From NCBI GenBank assembly GCA_002011125.2, contig MTMF02000009.1, positions 1,828,989 to 1,892,988 of the forward strand: a stretch of 64,000 bases of DNA, given 5' to 3'. The notes below the pieces were generated by a model. The model saw only the letters and a list, made by a program, of their open reading frames with translations, ran no database searches and was not told the origin of the DNA. Both the position numbers and the translations under genes were made by a program. The stretch comes from Candidatus Hydrothermarchaeum profundi. GTDB lineage: Archaea > Hydrothermarchaeota > Hydrothermarchaeia > Hydrothermarchaeales > Hydrothermarchaeaceae. Shown in pieces: positions 49,017 through 60,193 of this stretch; position 1 is the stretch's first letter; every line of letters starts with the position of its first letter.

Positions 49017-49058
49017 TTGAAATCCTGTAAAAATAGAAGGAGGGTTAAGTATGAGTAA
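49017..49058 (+). CDS. Putative 13-aa leader peptide before mtbC
   Basis: TTG start after AGGTGGGTG, encoding MKSCKNRRRVKYE; the AGG AGG codons are the mtbC ribosome site and the stop overlaps the mtbC start (ATGAGTAA). This may couple mtbC translation to the leader. Coding is unproven. Confidence 0.25.
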   Translation: MKSCKNRRRVKYE

Positions 49059-49698
49059 AGAAGAGATTTTGAAGAAAGCAGCTGACGCTATTTTAAAACA
49101 AGACGAGAAGGCTGCTGTTGAAGTTGCAAAGGAAGCGTTAGAAGCGGGTTTAGACCCTGTTGAAGTGATTGAAAAGGGATTTACAGAAGGTATCAGAGAA
49201 GTGGGGGACCTCTTCGATAGGGGTAAGCTTTTTCTCCCGCATGTAATGCTATCAGCAGACGCCATGAAAAAAGCCATCGCAGTTCTTGAGCCTGCTATCG
49301 GCGAAGGTAAGGGAAAAGAAAAAGTGGGGACCGTCGTAATTGGAACCGTTGAAGGAGATATCCATGAAATCGGGAAAGGAATTGTTTCTATCATGCTTCA
49401 AGTGGCTGGATTCGAGGTCCATGACTTGGGTAGGGACGTGCCATTAAAAAAATTCATAGAAGCCGCAAAGGAAACAAACGCCAACATAGTCGGTGCCTCA
49501 GCTTTAATGACGACTTCCTTACCCGGGCAAAAAGAGCTAATAAATCTGTTGAAAGACGCAGGCATCAGAGATAAGGTTAAGATGATGGTAGGGGGTGCAC
49601 CTGCCACTGAGAAATGGGCGCAGAAGATAGGGGCTGACGCCTACGCTGAGAATGCCACAGAGGCTGTGGCAAAGGCAAAAGAATTGGTAACATCATAA
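49051..49698 (+). CDS. mtbC: Dimethylamine corrinoid protein
   Basis: 215 aa B12-binding protein. A helical cap (about 1-90) is followed by a Rossmann domain with the corrinoid motif GDIHEIGKG (His is the cobalt ligand), GASALMTT and VGGAP. It accepts methyl from MtbB and passes it to a CoM or pterin methyltransferase. It shares the protein family with mtmC at 57525-58169. Assignment to dimethylamine comes from the adjacent mtbB. Confidence 0.93.
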   Translation: MSKEEILKKAADAILKQDEKAAVEVAKEALEAGLDPVEVIEKGFTEGIREVGDLFDRGKLFLPHVMLSADAMKKAIAVLEPAIGEGKGKEKVGTVVIGTVEGDIHEIGKGIVSIMLQVAGFEVHDLGRDVPLKKFIEAAKETNANIVGASALMTTSLPGQKELINLLKDAGIRDKVKMMVGGAPATEKWAQKIGADAYAENATEAVAKAKELVTS

Positions 49699-49801: not shown

Positions 49802-51208
49802 ATGGATTACCGTGTTAGAATTGGAGACGGCTCATTAAAATACCTCTCCAAGAAAGAGATAAAGGAAGACATTGAAGACGGAACCAAGGACGCTGCTGAC
49901 CGCGGAGAAATACCAGAACTAACTGATGACGATAAAGAGAGGCTACTTGAAATAGTAACCGAGCCTAATAAGATCGTCAGCGTTTCACCGGGCGAAGAGG
50001 TAGTTATGACAAATGACGTAGGAACACTCACTATCCAAGGTGACCAAGGGAACAGCGGGGTAGGACTACCGCTAGATCGTATACAATGTATACTTACTCA
50101 AGAGCGTGCTTTTGGATCTGACACAATGGAACTAGCCCACACCGATTACAGCTTCAAACCCGTTAAGCCCATCATAGCAATGGAACAACAAGCTCTCGAA
50201 CAGGCAGAACTATTAACAGTGATACCAGTCTTCTATGGAGCAATGCCAAACCTTGGACAGTACTATGTTATAGACGGGCCTTTCCCAAATCCGAATGATC
50301 TATATAGAGATCTGAAAATAAAAGAAGCTCGCGAGAGCCAGGAGGAATGCGCTGAGCATGCCTCGAACAATATGAGTTGGATAGGTCAAAGACTTTGGGA
50401 GGTAGGATGCGAAGGACTAAACTTCGATACTACCGCCGCAGCCGGAGATACCGACTTCTATGCTACTCTGACAGCTACTGAAGAGTTAAAGAAGACTACC
50501 TCTGAAATGTGCATAGAAATGGGCATGGCCGCAGAATACGTGCTCGGGATGCATGGGGAGCTAAAATATGGTGGCGAGCTTCTAGCAGGCCTGTATCCAC
50601 ATCAGCAAGTAAAAGTCGCAGAAAAAGCAGGAGTAGATATATTTGGTCCAGTAGTGAATACCAATACTAGCAAGTCTTTTCCATGGAATATTGCAAGAGC
50701 GCTTACTTTCGTGAAGGAATGCGTAAAACAGTCCAATATACCCATACATGTCAACATGGGAATGGGCGTAGGCGGAATCCCCATGTACGAGACGCCGCCA
50801 GTAGATGCCGTTACAAGGGCTTCTAAGGCAATGGTTCAGATTGCCCACGTCGACGGTATATAGATGGGAGTCGGCGACCCGGTGGGCATGCCTATAAGCC
50901 ATATAATGGCATCTGGCATGGGCGGACTTAGAACAGCGGGAGACCTAGTTGCTAGAATGCAGATGAGCAAAAAAATGAGGATTAATGAAGCCAAGGAGTA
51001 TGTAGCGAAAAAGCTAAACTTAACTCCAAGCGAGCTCTCAGACGAGTATGTCATGAGAGAAGTGAGAGAAGAGCTGGATATAGGGATTATAACACCAGTA
51101 CCGGGAGCAGCGAAAGGGATAGAAGCTAAAGTCAGGATCGCTGAGCTACTGGATATAACTATAAATCCGGTAGAGAGACTAAAAAATAAAGAAAAATTCA
51201 AAAGCTAA
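49802..51208 (+). CDS. mtbB: Dimethylamine methyltransferase with pyrrolysine (UAG at codon 354)
   Basis: 468 aa including pyrrolysine. Two frames are joined by an in-frame UAG at 50861-50863: ...AHVDGI-[UAG][20 protein letters not shown]. The known Methanosarcina MtbB has Pyl at 356 in the same context, and the downstream [11 protein letters not shown] part is needed for a full barrel. It transfers a methyl from dimethylamine to MtbC. ATG at 49802 has AGGAGGTG upstream. It ends at TAA and is followed by a strong terminator. Ordinary annotation would split it into two proteins (353 and 114 aa). Confidence 0.96.
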
Positions 51209-52421: not shown

Positions 52422-53141
52422 ATGCTTAAACCTGAAACAAAAGAAATAGCAAAGAAGTATATTAGGAGGCTCATTATAAAACTTGGAGTATCGCTGGCCA
52501 ATCCAGGATATCAGCGAGATAAGATTGTTCCCTTGAATGATATAACACTATCAGACGATATCGAGATAGATAGAACAATCGAGAAAATTATACAGGCCCC
52601 GGAACTTCCCTTAGAGGATAACATCACCGTTTTAGGCAGAAAGAAGAAGAAACAAGATATCGTGCTAATGTTAGATAGGAGCTTTTCTATGAAGGGGATC
52701 AAAACCGTCTTGTCAGCTATAACTGCCTCTGCGATTTCTTTACATTTTAAGGGGAATGTATCTGTCCTATTTTTTAACGATAAATCAAAATTCATTAAAA
52801 AAAGAAACCAAAAGATGGTTTTAGATTCTATAGTAGATAAGATTCTCGATTTAGATGTAGAAGGAGGAACAAATATAAGGAAAGCCCTTGAAATGGGCCT
52901 ACAAGAAATATCATCCTCAGACAAAAAAAGAGGACTACTTCTTACAGATGGTAACTGGACGGTAGGAGCTAATCCCTTAAGTGTGGCACAGAAGTATGAT
53001 AAGCTAGACGTAATCTGCTTCCCACCAGCTAATAGTGAGAAATCCAAGCTTTTAGCATTAAAAGGAAACGGAACCCTAGAATATGTTGAAAGGGAAGAGG
53101 ATATTTTCAGAGCAATATTAAGCTGCCTACGGCTAAACTAG
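52422..53141 (+). CDS. VWA-domain protein (MoxR partner)
   Basis: 239 aa from the first ATG. VWA fold with MIDAS-like residues D-R-S-F-S (LMLDRSFSM), GGTN and LLLTDGN (a later Asp). The same frame is open upstream to 52212 and reads like protein (DIEKEFEKSPYHLAKYF), overlapping the moxR stop, but has no ATG, GTG or TTG. The real N-terminus may therefore start at a rare codon or by frameshift from moxR. Ends in UAG. Confidence 0.85.
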   Translation: MLKPETKEIAKKYIRRLIIKLGVSLANPGYQRDKIVPLNDITLSDDIEIDRTIEKIIQAPELPLEDNITVLGRKKKKQDIVLMLDRSFSMKGIKTVLSAITASAISLHFKGNVSVLFFNDKSKFIKKRNQKMVLDSIVDKILDLDVEGGTNIRKALEMGLQEISSSDKKRGLLLTDGNWTVGANPLSVAQKYDKLDVICFPPANSEKSKLLALKGNGTLEYVEREEDIFRAILSCLRLN

Positions 53142-53722
53142 TTTTTCATATTATATCCGATGAGCAGAGTACCGTCCTTGCTTTTCTCGCAACCCAGTAA
53201 ACGCTTCAAGTATTCATCAGAAGGTGTACAAGGGCTACCTGATACTATATCTTCAAGCTCTTCAAATTCCTGGAGCTCTGGAAAAGGAAGAGGCGGCATA
53301 AGAAAATAAGGCTTTCCTTTTGGAAGTTTATTCTTATACAGTACAAAGTCAGGACCCATAAAAATAACATCTTTCCTTTTTTTCATTTCTTCCAGCTTTT
53401 TGGATCCAACCCATTCTCCAAGAATCTCCCCATCTTCGTCAACCATTACCACCCACGGGCGGGAGGGTTCCCTAAATGTTTTATCAAATAATATCACCCA
53501 TGTCTCGTCCCTTGATAAAGCCTCGAAAGTACCCTCGTTTAAAAAGTCCATCATGCCTTGTACCGCCCCTCTCTCCTGTGCTTTCTTCTCAAGCCTCAAA
53601 ATCTCCTCTTTTTCATCCTGGGTAAGAAGTCTTACATCCAGTACTCCTTTAAGGTTCCTAAGCCTAAACATTATCCTTTCGTGGAGGTCTTTTGTTACTC
53701 CACTAGTACTAGGCCGTTCCAT
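53138..53722 (-). CDS. Hypothetical protein next to DUF2284 gene
   Basis: 194 aa, soluble, predicted mixed alpha/beta, with a Trp-rich stretch (RPWVVMVDEDGEILGEW). A Cys pair (SGSPCTPS, LLGCEKS) is near the end. AGGAG precedes the ATG. It overlaps the DUF2284 gene by 28 bases, so both form an operon beside ramA. No family recognised. Ends in UAG. Confidence 0.75.
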   Translation of the reverse strand: MERPSTSGVTKDLHERIMFRLRNLKGVLDVRLLTQDEKEEILRLEKKAQERGAVQGMMDFLNEGTFEALSRDETWVILFDKTFREPSRPWVVMVDEDGEILGEWVGSKKLEEMKKRKDVIFMGPDFVLYKNKLPKGKPYFLMPPLPFPELQEFEELEDIVSGSPCTPSDEYLKRLLGCEKSKDGTLLIGYNMKN

Positions 53723-54410: not shown

Positions 54411-56042
54411 ATGAAGAGGTACGGGATTGCTTTGGATATGGGCACTAGCGGTTTCCGCGCCCAAGCGATAGATTTGGATGAGGGGGAAATAATCTCAACA
54501 TCAATTACTCTGCGACATCCTATACCCGGAGCTAACGTTATGGACCATGTGACTTTCGCAATAGACGTTGGAACTGATATAACCCACGACCTAATAGTAA
54601 TGACAGTAAACAAGCTAATAACAACCCTAAAAATTGACCCGACAAGAGTAGAAAGACTAGCGGTATGTGGTAATCCCTTTCAGCTTTCACTTTTCCAAAA
54701 ACTTGAGATACGAGACCTAGCATACGCGGGGGAATCTAAATTAAAGGCTTTAGGAGTAAAACCGCCTAAAAGAGATGCGACCATAATGGATGCCGAAACT
54801 ATTGGACTCAATATAAACCCTGAGGCAAATGTGCTTATACCCCCAGCGGTAAAACATGAAATAGGAGCAGATGCCTTAGCAATGATGCTAAAAACAGATT
54901 TCCTCGAAAATTCGCCAAGTATAGTCACAGACTACGGAACTAATGCAGAAATGGCGCTAAATGTAGATGGCCAGATATATTCAGGATCTGCTGCCGCAGG
55001 TCCTGCCCTAGAGGGACAACAAATTAAGGAGGGCATGCTAGCTGCTCCAGGTGCTATATCTGATGTAGATCCTGAAGACTCAAAATGGCGTTGCTCCGTT
55101 TTAAGTAAAGAGCTAATGGCTGAAGAGGGAGACCTAATAGATCCCCGCACTGGAGAAATATTTAAAAAAGGGGTCATGCACGGCAAAGTAAAAGGAATAA
55201 CCGGTACTGGCGTTATAGCTGCTATCGCTAGAGGACTACAAGAAGGGTTGGTTGTACCACCAAAGATTAAGACTCCAGACAATAAGGTCCACCTTCAAGA
55301 TGGTATTACGATAACTGAGGATGACATAGTCGAGGCTGGAAAAGCTATAGGAGCTATTAGAGCAGGCCATATGACGTTGATAAATGAAGCTGGAATAAGT
55401 ATGGAGGAAGTTGAAACAGCCTATATGGCTGGCGCCTTAGGAACGTATGTAGATGCAATTAAAGCTCAGAAAGTAGGCCTAGTGCCATCTACGTGCAAAA
55501 ACCTAGTGCAAGTCGGAAACACCTCTCTTTCACTAGCGAGGGATCTGATTTTTGAACCTGAAAAGCTTGAAGAACTCCAAGATTACGCAAACAAGTTAAG
55601 GGCAAAACATGTTATGTTCGCGATATCAAATACCTTCAGAAACATCTTCGTTATAGAGCTTTCTCTTTGGACTGAAGGAATGCCCTTCAGCATGTATAAT
55701 GACATGTTAAAGATGTATAAATTACCGCCAATACCTATGAAGAATGTCAATGCAAAAGTGAATAAAATTGTTCAGAGAGATATTCCAATACTGGGTAAAT
55801 ATGGAATCACCGTTGTTGAAGATGTAGGTATAATTCTTTCAACTAGAGTATCAGAGTGCATTTACTGTAAAAAATGTATTAGAGAATGTCCTGAGGAGGC
55901 AATAGAGATAATAGAAAAAGATGGTAAGCGAATAGCATTAATAAGATCTGATAAGTGCAATGGAACAGCGTGTCGAAGGTGCGAGATAATTTGTCCTAAA
56001 AATACCCTTAAGCTAAGAGAACTAAAGATAAATACAACCTAA
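54411..56042 (+). CDS. ramA: Corrinoid activation protein RamA-like (ATP-dependent)
   Basis: 543 aa. N-terminal ASKHA-type ATPase part (IALDMGTSGFRAQAID; VTDYGTNAEMALN) and two C-terminal [4Fe-4S] sites (CIYCKKCIRECP and CNGTACRRCEIICP). In Methanosarcina RamA reduces inactive Co(II) methylamine corrinoid proteins to Co(I) with ATP. Its location between the mtb and mtm loci fits. It runs convergent to mtmB with a shared 67-base gap. Confidence 0.94.
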   Translation: MKRYGIALDMGTSGFRAQAIDLDEGEIISTSITLRHPIPGANVMDHVTFAIDVGTDITHDLIVMTVNKLITTLKIDPTRVERLAVCGNPFQLSLFQKLEIRDLAYAGESKLKALGVKPPKRDATIMDAETIGLNINPEANVLIPPAVKHEIGADALAMMLKTDFLENSPSIVTDYGTNAEMALNVDGQIYSGSAAAGPALEGQQIKEGMLAAPGAISDVDPEDSKWRCSVLSKELMAEEGDLIDPRTGEIFKKGVMHGKVKGITGTGVIAAIARGLQEGLVVPPKIKTPDNKVHLQDGITITEDDIVEAGKAIGAIRAGHMTLINEAGISMEEVETAYMAGALGTYVDAIKAQKVGLVPSTCKNLVQVGNTSLSLARDLIFEPEKLEELQDYANKLRAKHVMFAISNTFRNIFVIELSLWTEGMPFSMYNDMLKMYKLPPIPMKNVNAKVNKIVQRDIPILGKYGITVVEDVGIILSTRVSECIYCKKCIRECPEEAIEIIEKDGKRIALIRSDKCNGTACRRCEIICPKNTLKLRELKINTT

Positions 56043-56089: not shown

Positions 56090-56109
56090 AAAGAGTATAT
56101 TCTTTACCT

Positions 56110-57489
56110 CTACTTGATGTCAACGCCGAGTTCCCGTAGAGTGTTCACGGCCTTATCATACACCTGCAGGTGCTCCTCAGTAGGAACAACCTTAACCACG
56201 TCATAACACTCCTGGAACCTCTTACCCTTAGGCGCCGTCTTATAGTCACTCTCGTACTTCTTAATCAAATTATCCAAGATCACGTTAACCTCACTGATAT
56301 CCATGCCAGCCACAGCAATAGCCGCCTCACCCATAATCCGGGCCTCCATACCAGTCGTATAATCCAACGCAACGCCCTTAGCACTAGCACTACCACTAAC
56401 AAGCTCACGGCCACTAGCAGTGTCAGTAATAGCCTGAGCAGCCGTCTCCAACAAACACATCTCAGTACACGGACCCGCCAACGGATAATACTGGTTCGAA
56501 GTCAACAAATGAGTATTCTCATCAATAGCCCTAGCCGTATGCCCAGCCACCTGCAGGGTCTCACGCGCAGTAGTGATACCCCACCTGATATGGATAGGCC
56601 CATCCAAGTGATAACTCCCATTCAACAAGGTGAAGCTCGTCAAATGAGTAGCCACGTTACAGATCGAGGTCTCCTCGACCCCGCCAGCATAGCCACCAAA
56701 GATAGGCATCTGCTCCACCATAATAATATCACCATTCTGAACCCAACCAGCAATCATATGCAGGCCACCATTATCAATCTTAAGCTCATTCAACTGACTG
56801 ATCTCATGGCTATCACAAGGCCTCAAGCCACCCAGGAGATCCCCGGCAAGACGCCCCGCACTCGTCAAGGGCGTCTCTGGGCCCTAAACCGCCATATAGG
56901 GTCTCCCAGCCTTACGACAAGCCTCACGGATATAATACAACTCAAACAGAGTAGCCTTAATCTCCCAAGGACTACCGCTAGTAGCCTCATTACCCTCAAT
57001 AGTAGCCAACACACCATTCACAATAGTATCCACCGTAGGCTCCTGAGCATAACTCTGAAACATCGGGATAAAAATATCCTCACTAACAGGAGCACCCGTA
57101 GGACCGCCCTGAATAACAGGCTTAAAACCAGGATTACCACGACGCTGCGCCATATCCACTGCGTCCTGATACTCGCCCAACACGAGCTTCCTAGGCGCCT
57201 TCTTAATAGACTCAAGAACCTCGTCCTCAGAGACCCTGATAACCCTTCCGGTGTCAATATTATAGATCCCAGTCTCCACCAACATCTCCAAGCCGGCCTG
57301 GAACAAGTTATCAATCAGCTCACTGTCCGTAGGAATAATCTCACCCGAAAACTTGATGTTATACTTCTCCTTCATCTTAGCAGCATTCTGCGGGATAATC
57401 TTATAATCCCAGTCACGCTCACTAACCTTCTCCCCACTAATCGACCTATTATAGGTCTCATACACATCTAAAGGCCTACCAACCGCCAA
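56110..57489 (-). CDS. mtmB: Monomethylamine methyltransferase with pyrrolysine (UAG at codon 202)
   Basis: 459 aa including pyrrolysine. An in-frame UAG (minus strand, 56884-56886) joins the halves: ...RKAGRPYMAV-[UAG]-GPETPLTSAGRLAG. Methanosarcina MtmB has Pyl at exactly 202 in the same context, and DSHEISQLNELKID, DEQMP-like VEQMPIFGGYAGG and AGPCTEMCLLE follow as expected. It moves methyl from monomethylamine to MtmC. The start is TTG at 57489 behind GGAGGTGA. A 7-bp hairpin follows the UAG. The normal stop is also UAG, with UAA two codons on. Conventional calling would split it into 201 and 252 aa pieces. Confidence 0.97.
56850..56875 (-). promoter_or_regulatory. PYLIS-like hairpin after the mtmB UAG
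   Basis: Eight bases beyond the UAG on the mRNA, GACGCCC pairs with GGGCGTC over a 12-base loop. The position matches the proposed PYLIS stem of Methanosarcina mtmB, which may help pyrrolysine insertion. The sequence differs but the pairing is perfect. Confidence 0.6.
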
Positions 57490-57524
57490 AACAACTCACC
57501 TCCAACAATAAACAATTATTATCC

Positions 57525-58169
57525 TTAGTCGCCAACAAGCTCCTTCGCAATCCTCACAGCCTCAGCACCATTCGGACAATAAGCGTCACCGCCAATCTCA
57601 TCCACCCACTCCTGGTTAACAGGCGCACCGCCAAACAACGTCTTCACCTTATCCCGGATCCCAGCCTCCTTCAAAGCCTTAACAATCTCCCTCTGACCAG
57701 GACGCGTAGTAGTCATAAGAGCACTAGCACCAACGATATCAGCATTAACCTCCTTAGCGGTCTCAACGAACTTATCGATAGGAGCATCCCGGCCAATATC
57801 AATCACATCAAAGCCAGCGCCCTGAAGCATAGCAGCAACAACGTTCTTACCGATCTCATGGATATCCCCCTCAACAGTACCGATAACCACTACCTTACCC
57901 ATCTTCTCCCCAGACTCCATGATCTTAGGCTTCAAGACCTCAAGACCCGCCTGCATAGCCTCCGCAGCCATCAAGATCTGAGGCAAAAAGATCTTGGCCT
58001 CATCAAAAAGGTCGCTGATAGTCATCATACCCCTACCCAAGCCGTCATTAATAGCCTCAAAAGGCTCAATGCCCGCCTCCAACGCCTCCTTAGCCGCAGA
58101 GCTAGCCAAGTCAGCATCATAGGTCTCCACGGCTTTCTTCAACTTATCAAGAATCTCCTGCTTAAACAA
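57525..58169 (-). CDS. mtmC: Monomethylamine corrinoid protein
   Basis: 214 aa, homologous to MtbC. Corrinoid motif GDIHEIGKN with the cobalt-ligand His, GASALMTTT, and FGGAPV. Its codon use is rich in G and T third bases, unlike mtbC. The start is TTG at 58169 with GGGGGTGA upstream. It sits 35 bases before mtmB in one operon and carries the methyl group from MtmB onward. Confidence 0.94.
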   Translation of the reverse strand: MFKQEILDKLKKAVETYDADLASSAAKEALEAGIEPFEAINDGLGRGMMTISDLFDEAKIFLPQILMAAEAMQAGLEVLKPKIMESGEKMGKVVVIGTVEGDIHEIGKNVVAAMLQGAGFDVIDIGRDAPIDKFVETAKEVNADIVGASALMTTTRPGQREIVKALKEAGIRDKVKTLFGGAPVNQEWVDEIGGDAYCPNGAEAVRIAKELVGD

Positions 58170-58275: not shown

Positions 58276-58542
58276 TCACTCGGATTTCTCGGTTGCTTTT
58301 TTGAGTTCTTCTATGAAGCCCTCATAACCAGGCAACGTCCCTTCTTCCAGCCATTTATCCACAGCTTCTTCGTATTCCTGGTTTTCCATTTTAATCTGCC
58401 AGTAGTGCCACCAGATCCAGAGTAGTGTTGAGATTGCTACGAAGAGTTTTGTCAAACCCCACAGAGGCGATACAACCTCCATGTTCTCTGCACCAGTCCA
58501 GTCTGTTACTCCTGTTGCAATTAACAGCATTATGCTTACCAT
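58276..58542 (-). CDS. Small membrane protein co-transcribed with Amt transporter
   Basis: 88 aa. An N-terminal segment and one strong helix (about 30-48, with WIWWHYW) precede an acidic helical tail (NQEYEEAVDKWLEEG). It overlaps the end of the transporter gene by seven bases, so it may be an accessory subunit. No named family. Confidence 0.75.
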   Translation of the reverse strand: MVSIMLLIATGVTDWTGAENMEVVSPLWGLTKLFVAISTLLWIWWHYWQIKMENQEYEEAVDKWLEEGTLPGYEGFIEELKKATEKSE

Positions 58543-60140
58543 CTCAACTCACCTCGTTCCTCAAACTCTTTTTGTAGCCTTATAGCATCCTTTATTAAGT
58601 CCTCTGGACTCGGCACTCCGAGGTAATCTTTTCTACCAGTGTCTTTACTGTACGCATTGATATTCAATAGTAGGTTTCTCCCAGGCTTAGAACCCTGCTT
58701 AGCTTTTAATAGGATTCTATGAGCCTCGATTCCCTGGACCTTATCGATCTCCGAGAAGTCCTCTGGCCTGTATGGTGGGAAATACGGGTACATTTCACCG
58801 ACTGCTGGAGAAGCTATATCAAGTCCTGCAAGCTCTACTAGCGGTGGAACTCTGAGTAATCCTAGCTTCTTGAATATCCAGCTAGCACCAAAGCCGAAGA
58901 GGAATGCCCAACCTGCTTCCCAAACTGCAAGCATGAAATTACCCCAAGGCGTGGTTACCCCTTGTAGTTCGTCGAAACCAAGAGGACCTCCTCCGGCAGG
59001 ATATCCCCAAAGCAATATGCCTGCATATATAAGTCCTAGTACTCCCGAATAGCCGTGGACAGCACACGCTCCTACTGCGTCGTCGATCTTGAATCTCTTT
59101 TCTACCCAGTAGTGTAGCTTATATATTATTGGAATGGTTATGAACCCTAGGAGAAACGCTTGCATCGGGTGATAAAGATCGTTTCCTGCCGAGGCTGCGA
59201 TGACTCCAGCAAGCCCTCCTGAAAAAATCCAGAAGGGATTCCCTTTGCTCGCGAAGAATCCTCCCATGAAACCTCCGGTTAGAGACAATAAGAAGTTGGT
59301 CCCAATAGCAGAATTACTTGTTGGATTACCATATATGTTAACCGTTCCCCAATAGGACATCTCCATTGTCGGATCCCATGCTAGGGCTGTCGGTATGTTG
59401 CAAGCAAAATAGAATCCCCAGAACCCTGTATATATAAGGAACAATCCTATACATGTCAACCACTGGTTGTGGAGAGGGACATCCCTTGGATTTCCCTTTT
59501 CATCGAATCTTCCAATTCTAGGTCCCAAGTTTATTAGAACTCCAAGAGTATACCATCCCGCAATAGTGTGGATAATGCCACTAGCGTATGCATCGTGAGA
59601 GCCAAAGTATTTTACAGTCCATCCCCAGGGAGACCACGCCTGAGATGCTAGCCAGATCCATACAAAGGACCCTAGGAATACTGACATTAACAAAAATGCT
59701 CCTACTCTGCACCTTTCAATAACCGCACCAGAAAGGATTGAGCCCTCTGTCAGAGAAAAGAGCAGGAACGCTGCCCAGAATGCTAACATAAAGTGGTCCT
59801 GCATATGCGTTGTCATCAATGGACTCCACGGAGCATAATCGGCTGGATCAACTATCTCTGGATATTGCCCTGGTATCAGGAAAGTGGACCAATGAGGACC
59901 TGAGAATGCTGCATACACCCACCATCCGAAGATATAGAACGTGAAGATGATGAGTGGGAACAGCATTGCATTTTTCATCAGCGTATGACCAACGTTCTTC
60001 CTTCTAGACACCCCGACTTCGTATGTACAGAATCCTACGTGTATCAGGAACATGACTATCACTGTCACCCAGTAATACCACTCCTGATACAGATACGCTA
60101 ACTGCCATATTCTTTCAGCTAGCGGATACGGTTCTACCAT
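58536..60140 (-). CDS. Amt/Mep/Rh-family transporter, probable methylammonium permease
   Basis: 534 aa with about 11 helices, longer than normal Amt (~400-450) because of an extended C-terminal tail (about 430-534). Family features are present but sparse: HTIAGWYTLG (His in the pore region), GSILSGAVIERC, and a second pore His in ACAVHGYSG. Its placement directly before mtmCB argues for methylammonium, a known Amt substrate, rather than only ammonium. ATG at 60140 has AGGAGGTG six bases upstream; an open frame starts three codons earlier. A short UAG-ending leader overlaps this start. Confidence 0.88.
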   Translation of the reverse strand: MVEPYPLAERIWQLAYLYQEWYYWVTVIVMFLIHVGFCTYEVGVSRRKNVGHTLMKNAMLFPLIIFTFYIFGWWVYAAFSGPHWSTFLIPGQYPEIVDPADYAPWSPLMTTHMQDHFMLAFWAAFLLFSLTEGSILSGAVIERCRVGAFLLMSVFLGSFVWIWLASQAWSPWGWTVKYFGSHDAYASGIIHTIAGWYTLGVLINLGPRIGRFDEKGNPRDVPLHNQWLTCIGLFLIYTGFWGFYFACNIPTALAWDPTMEMSYWGTVNIYGNPTSNSAIGTNFLLSLTGGFMGGFFASKGNPFWIFSGGLAGVIAASAGNDLYHPMQAFLLGFITIPIIYKLHYWVEKRFKIDDAVGACAVHGYSGVLGLIYAGILLWGYPAGGGPLGFDELQGVTTPWGNFMLAVWEAGWAFLFGFGASWIFKKLGLLRVPPLVELAGLDIASPAVGEMYPYFPPYRPEDFSEIDKVQGIEAHRILLKAKQGSKPGRNLLLNINAYSKDTGRKDYLGVPSPEDLIKDAIRLQKEFEERGELRW

Positions 60141-60193
60141 AGAATACACCTCCTAATCGTTTCCTCCCCCCTTAGGTACTTCCCTTCTATCAC
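60134..60193 (-). CDS. Putative 19-aa leader peptide ending in UAG, overlapping the Amt start
   Basis: GTG at 60193 has a perfect AGGAGG seven bases before it (60206-60201). It encodes MIEGKYLRGEETIRRCILW and ends with UAG at 60136-60134, inside the first codons of the transporter gene (ATGGTAG). The same frame has further UAGs four and eleven codons on, then UGA. If UAG were read as pyrrolysine, ribosomes would run on into the transporter gene, which could tie transporter output to pyrrolysine supply. Confidence 0.4.
   Translation of the reverse strand: MIEGKYLRGEETIRRCILW

Follow-up and report, generated by a model that had tools for sequence, protein, structure and literature searches.

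An in-frame UAG at the pyrrolysine position of a monomethylamine methyltransferase gene in Candidatus Hydrothermarchaeum profundi, an archaeon without detectable mcrA

The mtmB gene found in the analysed stretch of Ca. Hydrothermarchaeum profundi DNA (64,000 nucleotides, here called the window) is very probably the gene of a pyrrolysine-containing monomethylamine:corrinoid methyltransferase in a host that appears to lack the enzyme for making methane. The mechanism is already known and pyl genes in non-methanogenic archaea have already been published; what is unusual here is the setting and the occurrence of two UAG codons in one gene. The host joins the few apparently non-methanogenic archaea that encode pyrrolysine, and it has a split synthetase together with frequent termination of genes at UAG.

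The mtmB gene and its internal UAG codon

The gene and its signals are located in the window as follows.

56110..57489, minus strand: mtmB, predicted monomethylamine methyltransferase, 459 codons via UAG202, TTG start (Pfam MtmB 770 bits; ungapped against 1TV2)
56884..56886, minus strand: in-frame UAG, codon 202, at the pyrrolysine position (TAG in 78 of 78 relatives)
56110..56112, minus strand: terminal codon of mtmB, UAG (TAG end in 0 of 72 relatives)
56104..56106, minus strand: in-frame UAA two codons past the terminal UAG, a back-up stop (UAG AGG UAA)
57496..57503, minus strand: GGAGGTGA, Shine-Dalgarno-like, 6 nt 5' of the TTG start

mtmB is one gene of 459 codons (57489..56110) with a single interruption at codon 202, where the plus strand reads CTA and the minus strand TAG. 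The upstream frame of 201 codons (57489..56884) and the stretch that follows (56883..56110) share a common frame and are parted only by this TAG. The initial annotation had joined the two open frames into one protein of 459 residues with PYMAV before and GPET after the UAG; the joining holds and both motifs are present. Read through the UAG, the product matched the Pfam profile MtmB (PF05369) with 770 bits from residue 7 to 455, covering positions 1-449 of the 450 in the profile and indicating full-length homology. With M. barkeri MtmB1 (1TV2) the alignment was free of gaps, residues 5-456 lying on residues 5-456, which agrees with the earlier claim that length and UAG position are like those of Methanosarcina MtmB. 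Since the alignment is ungapped, codon 202 falls on the known Pyl position, the pyrrolysine site in the solved M. barkeri MtmB structure (1TV2, 1NTH). The start codon is TTG (57489..57487), with GGAGGTGA at 57503..57496, and the terminal codon (56112..56110) is again TAG, followed by AGG and an in-frame TAA (56106..56104).

Relatives of mtmB were collected by a scan of public genomes that yielded 76 loci, the records of the window's own genome being left out. At codon 202, TAG was present in all 78 alignable homologous segments that cover the site. Upstream as well as downstream of this TAG, mtmB differed from its nearest relatives chiefly in the third codon position. When mtmB was compared with the Methanomassiliicoccales locus L034, the second- and third-position differences were 0.23 and 0.70 upstream of the TAG and 0.13 and 0.60 downstream. 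Judged by this bias, the part downstream of UAG202 should be translated and under selection, and both halves of mtmB evolve as coding sequence. Together with the TAG in all relatives, the differences on both sides argue that UAG202 is not a chance event. The terminal codon was TAA or TGA in the 72 relatives with a readable end, and UAG was found only in the window gene.

Folding of the RNA 3' of UAG202 was no better than that of shuffled sequences (z = -0.47). A local RNA insertion element after the codon was therefore rejected, and an insertion signal was not evident in this region.

Besides mtmB, the genome contains three methylamine methyltransferase genes that are likewise interrupted by a single in-frame UAG; they are two mtbB and one mttB, and all end in UAA. 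One mtbB lies in the window beside a corrinoid gene.

49802..51208, plus strand: mtbB, dimethylamine methyltransferase, UAG codon 354 (50861-50863), ends in UAA (Pfam Dimeth_Pyl 769 bits across the UAG)
49051..49698, plus strand: mtbC-type corrinoid protein, upstream of mtbB (TIGR02370 271 bits, cut-off 215)
C9:239781-241148: second mtbB, UAG codon 352 (565 bits, more divergent)
C9:1898904-1900310: mttB just outside the window, UAG codon 333, ends in UAA

The second mtbB (L017:8571-10667; G000:C9:239070-241166) is in divergent orientation to a corrinoid gene and to an aldehyde-ferredoxin-oxidoreductase-like gene, and its substrate may be other than dimethylamine.

A dead mtmB, by pseudogene formation or sequencing error, would make UAG202 a nonsense mutation; in its favour, about 19% of the sampled ORFs use UAG as their normal stop, and the foreign-looking composition of mtmCB could be that of a decaying acquisition. 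We give this practically no credence, since the UAG sits exactly at the known Pyl codon as in 78 of 78 relatives, there is no further disruption, both halves of mtmB are constrained, the pyl set is intact and the three other methyltransferase genes each carry a single UAG.

Pyrrolysine genes and the use of UAG in the genome

The genome (2.19 Mb in 19 contigs, one of them 1.92 Mb; 97.65% complete) has a pyl cluster at C9:1317-1322k with the gene order pylT, pylSn, pylSc, pylB, pylC, pylD. PylSn (97 aa; TIGR03912, 97 bits, cut-off 51), PylSc (277 aa; TIGR02367, 295 bits, cut-off 178), PylB, PylC and PylD each scored above the curated NCBIfam cut-off. The initial annotation had proposed a genome search for pylT, pylS and pylBCD and had named a lack of pyl genes as an argument against pyrrolysine; the full set was found in one cluster of the same genome. 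From the homology of MtmB and the pyl machinery we infer that the residue at codon 202 is pyrrolysine, as had been suggested. Among 23 genomes of the phylum that were compared, PylB was above the cut-off only in the mtmB host.

PylRS is split here, with the N- and C-terminal domains encoded in the two adjacent genes pylSn and pylSc. This arrangement is rare in archaea, with seven cases among 75 (PMC11764691, PMC9499178). For Ca. Hydrothermarchaeum profundi, pyl genes (PMC9723677) and the split PylSn+PylSc (PMC9723677, PMC9499178) have been reported before. The single pylT of the genome adjoins an MtaA-like gene, has a CUA anticodon and folds into a compact tRNA in which a single base links the acceptor and D stems; the D-loop has 5 nt, the 7-bp anticodon stem is unbroken, the variable loop has 2-3 nt and the discriminator is G73. 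This agrees with what is described for tRNA-Pyl outside the deltaN class, and the interruption of the anticodon stem that marks deltaN is not seen; the tRNAs of the PylSn+PylSc class are described as unstudied so far (PMC9499178).

With this set, PylB, PylC and PylD would convert lysine to pyrrolysine, and PylSn and PylSc would charge tRNA-Pyl(CUA). The charged tRNA-Pyl would then compete with the release factor at UAG, and at codon 202 of mtmB the predicted outcome is the full-length enzyme. PylRS-type enzymes also accept other lysine derivatives. No evidence was seen that UAG202 is suppressed by a standard amino acid such as lysine or glutamine, and this is barely credible, given the dedicated PylB, PylC and PylD genes with scores above curated cut-offs and the well-established pyrrolysine at this position in the structure of the homologue (1TV2, 1NTH).

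Stop codons were counted in about 461 kb of the 2.19 Mb, and the figures are approximate since the 371 ORFs were chosen by length only. TAG ended 69 of the 371 ORFs (18.6%), a count that includes the mtbB and mttB fragments ending at the Pyl codon, and uppS-like and SRP54-like housekeeping genes were among the TAG-ending ORFs. A complete pyl set could also go along with a full reassignment of the code, with UAG read as pyrrolysine throughout; MtmB would then end with Pyl-Arg before the UAA, and the AGG UAA after UAG460 means that readthrough would add just two residues. Against this stand the ORFs with a TAG end, and these were not followed more closely by a further in-frame stop than the ORFs ending in TAA, the median distance being 10 codons for both. 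Long in-frame continuations followed TAG in 10 of 69 cases and TAA or TGA in 42 of 302; three of the 10 were the known methyltransferases, and the other continuations, where tested, were separate domains or belonged to no family, as was the case for the extensions of the sense-UAG candidates L020, L030, L019 and L031. A full reassignment is thus very unlikely. UAG is still an ordinary stop in this genome, and since about 19% of the ORFs end with it, the insertion of pyrrolysine must compete with termination. A truncated MtmB product ending at UAG202 is also expected.

Three further readthrough candidates, at 52422-53141 and 53138-53722 of the window and at L017 16256-18535, were rejected because they continue into oppositely oriented genes. 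A genome of the same order without PylB above the cut-off had 30% TAG at 50% GC, compared with 18.6% at 39% GC here (p = 0.0012); base composition confounds this comparison, and we do not claim a depletion of UAG stops after the acquisition of pyl.

The Sifarchaeia are non-methanogenic archaea, as the host of mtmB probably is, and share with it a complete pyl set; their UAG stops are reported to make up 21%, compared with about 19% here (PMC9723677, PMC9499178). They differ in that a single gene with an in-frame UAG, mtbB, has been reported, whereas four such methyltransferase genes, including mtmB, are found here. The control of Pyl insertion in Sifarchaeia was described as unknown, and the literature treats it as an open question how such cells tell UAG for pyrrolysine from UAG for termination (PMC9723677). 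A single mtmB mRNA in which UAG202 is read as pyrrolysine and UAG460 terminates is conceivable, although we would rather doubt it. If this were the case, the choice between insertion and termination would depend on context or position, and mtmB would bring its own internal control to the study of that choice. Alternatively, UAG460 may also be read, giving MtmB a C-terminal Pyl-Arg tail. A message with UAG codons of both kinds would allow a direct test of the discrimination between Pyl and stop.

Host metabolism, gene neighbourhood and origin

No match to McrA was obtained in the 97.65%-complete genome with PF02249 or TIGR03256, although both models detected the control methanogens. The host is therefore probably a non-methanogenic methylotroph. 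An ordinary methylotrophic methanogen would require that mcr lies in the 2-3% missing from the assembly, which is a 19-contig draft, and the genome does encode methanogenesis marker 11 and homologues of CoM methyltransferases. We regard this as improbable, as two McrA models gave no match and a single contig accounts for 1.92 of the 2.19 Mb; in addition, methanogenesis markers are counted as remnants in non-methanogens (PMC9635834).

The genes around mtmB were assigned as follows.

57525..58169, minus strand: mtmC, cognate corrinoid protein, directly upstream of mtmB (TIGR02370 252 bits, cut-off 215)
54411..56042, plus strand: ramA, corrinoid protein reductive activase, facing mtmB (TIGR04270 791 bits, cut-off 500)
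58536..60149, minus strand: Amt-family transporter, upstream of mtmCB (TIGR00836 169 bits, under the cut-off of 343)
58276..58542, minus strand: 88-codon ORF between the Amt gene and mtmC (no family found)

MtmB is predicted to demethylate monomethylamine, with the corrinoid protein MtmC as the methyl acceptor; RamA would hold MtmC in the reduced active state. Coenzyme M or tetrahydromethanopterin would probably receive the methyl group next, through MtaA/MtbA-like and MtrH-like methyltransferases, and from there it would enter a Wood-Ljungdahl-type pathway; a fate other than methane is proposed because methyl-coenzyme M reductase was not detectable in the genome. Methylotrophy without methane is accordingly the likely mode of life suggested by the gene content. 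A dense cluster elsewhere in the genome (L122; G000:C9:1584000-1603500) encodes MtaA/CmuA-like methyltransferases, corrinoid proteins, two MtrH-family proteins and an AcsV/RamA-like activase. The position of the Amt gene suggests that its product may import methylammonium. At the loci of relatives that were examined, no Amt-like protein was seen near mtmCB except for one weak match of 25%.

MtmB was found in none of the 22 relatives of the host in its class. In a maximum-likelihood tree, mtmB was placed with Methanomassiliicoccales in a five-row clade with a support of 100/100, and its nearest relatives were the Methanomassiliicoccales loci L034 and L035, with 69% and 67% identity. The GC3 averaged 0.36 in the genome sample; mtmB with 0.54 (z = 3.0) and mtmC with 0.56 (z = 3.3) were well above this mean. 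The genes of the pyl cluster, mtbB, mttB and ramA deviated from it by no more than about 1.3 standard deviations. The atypical composition of mtmCB and the grouping with Methanomassiliicoccales suggest that mtmCB was likely acquired by lateral transfer. Alternatively, the high GC3 may arise from codon bias through high expression.

The comparison with Methanosarcina that had been made at first stands for the enzyme, but the nearest relatives of the gene are Methanomassiliicoccales and the host is seemingly no methanogen. With the M. barkeri system (1TV2, 1NTH) the window shares the length of MtmB, the UAG position and an mtmC directly upstream. Unlike that system, mtmB of the window has a TTG start and a UAG end (UAA or UGA in the relatives) and resides in a host without detectable mcrA, and it is about 52-56% identical to the MtmB of Methanosarcinaceae. 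The relatives L034 and L035 differ from the host in being members of a methanogenic order, and from the window in the Amt gene beside mtmCB.

A second MtmB-family gene of the genome has no UAG (L007:9686-11047; G000:C9:1059685-1061046, minus strand; PF05369 355 bits) and encodes valine at the Pyl position. Its neighbours encode methanogenesis marker 11, a radical SAM protein and a protein that resembles XcbA but scores below the cut-off (119.7 bits against 150), and no corrinoid gene was seen beside it. Non-Pyl MtmB proteins have one demonstrated function to date, that of MtqB from Methanococcoides methylutens Q3c, which belongs to the same family as this UAG-free gene product (PMC13044021); the gene found here differs in sitting with marker 11 and in its lack of a neighbouring corrinoid gene. 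Marker 11 was above the curated cut-off in four of the 23 phylum genomes (G000, G006, G007 and G010). Another archaeal genome, G050, which has three UAG-containing mtmB copies, also encodes an MtmB homologue without UAG (L012; G050:C1:368074-369423), with about 33% identity to the MtmB of the window.
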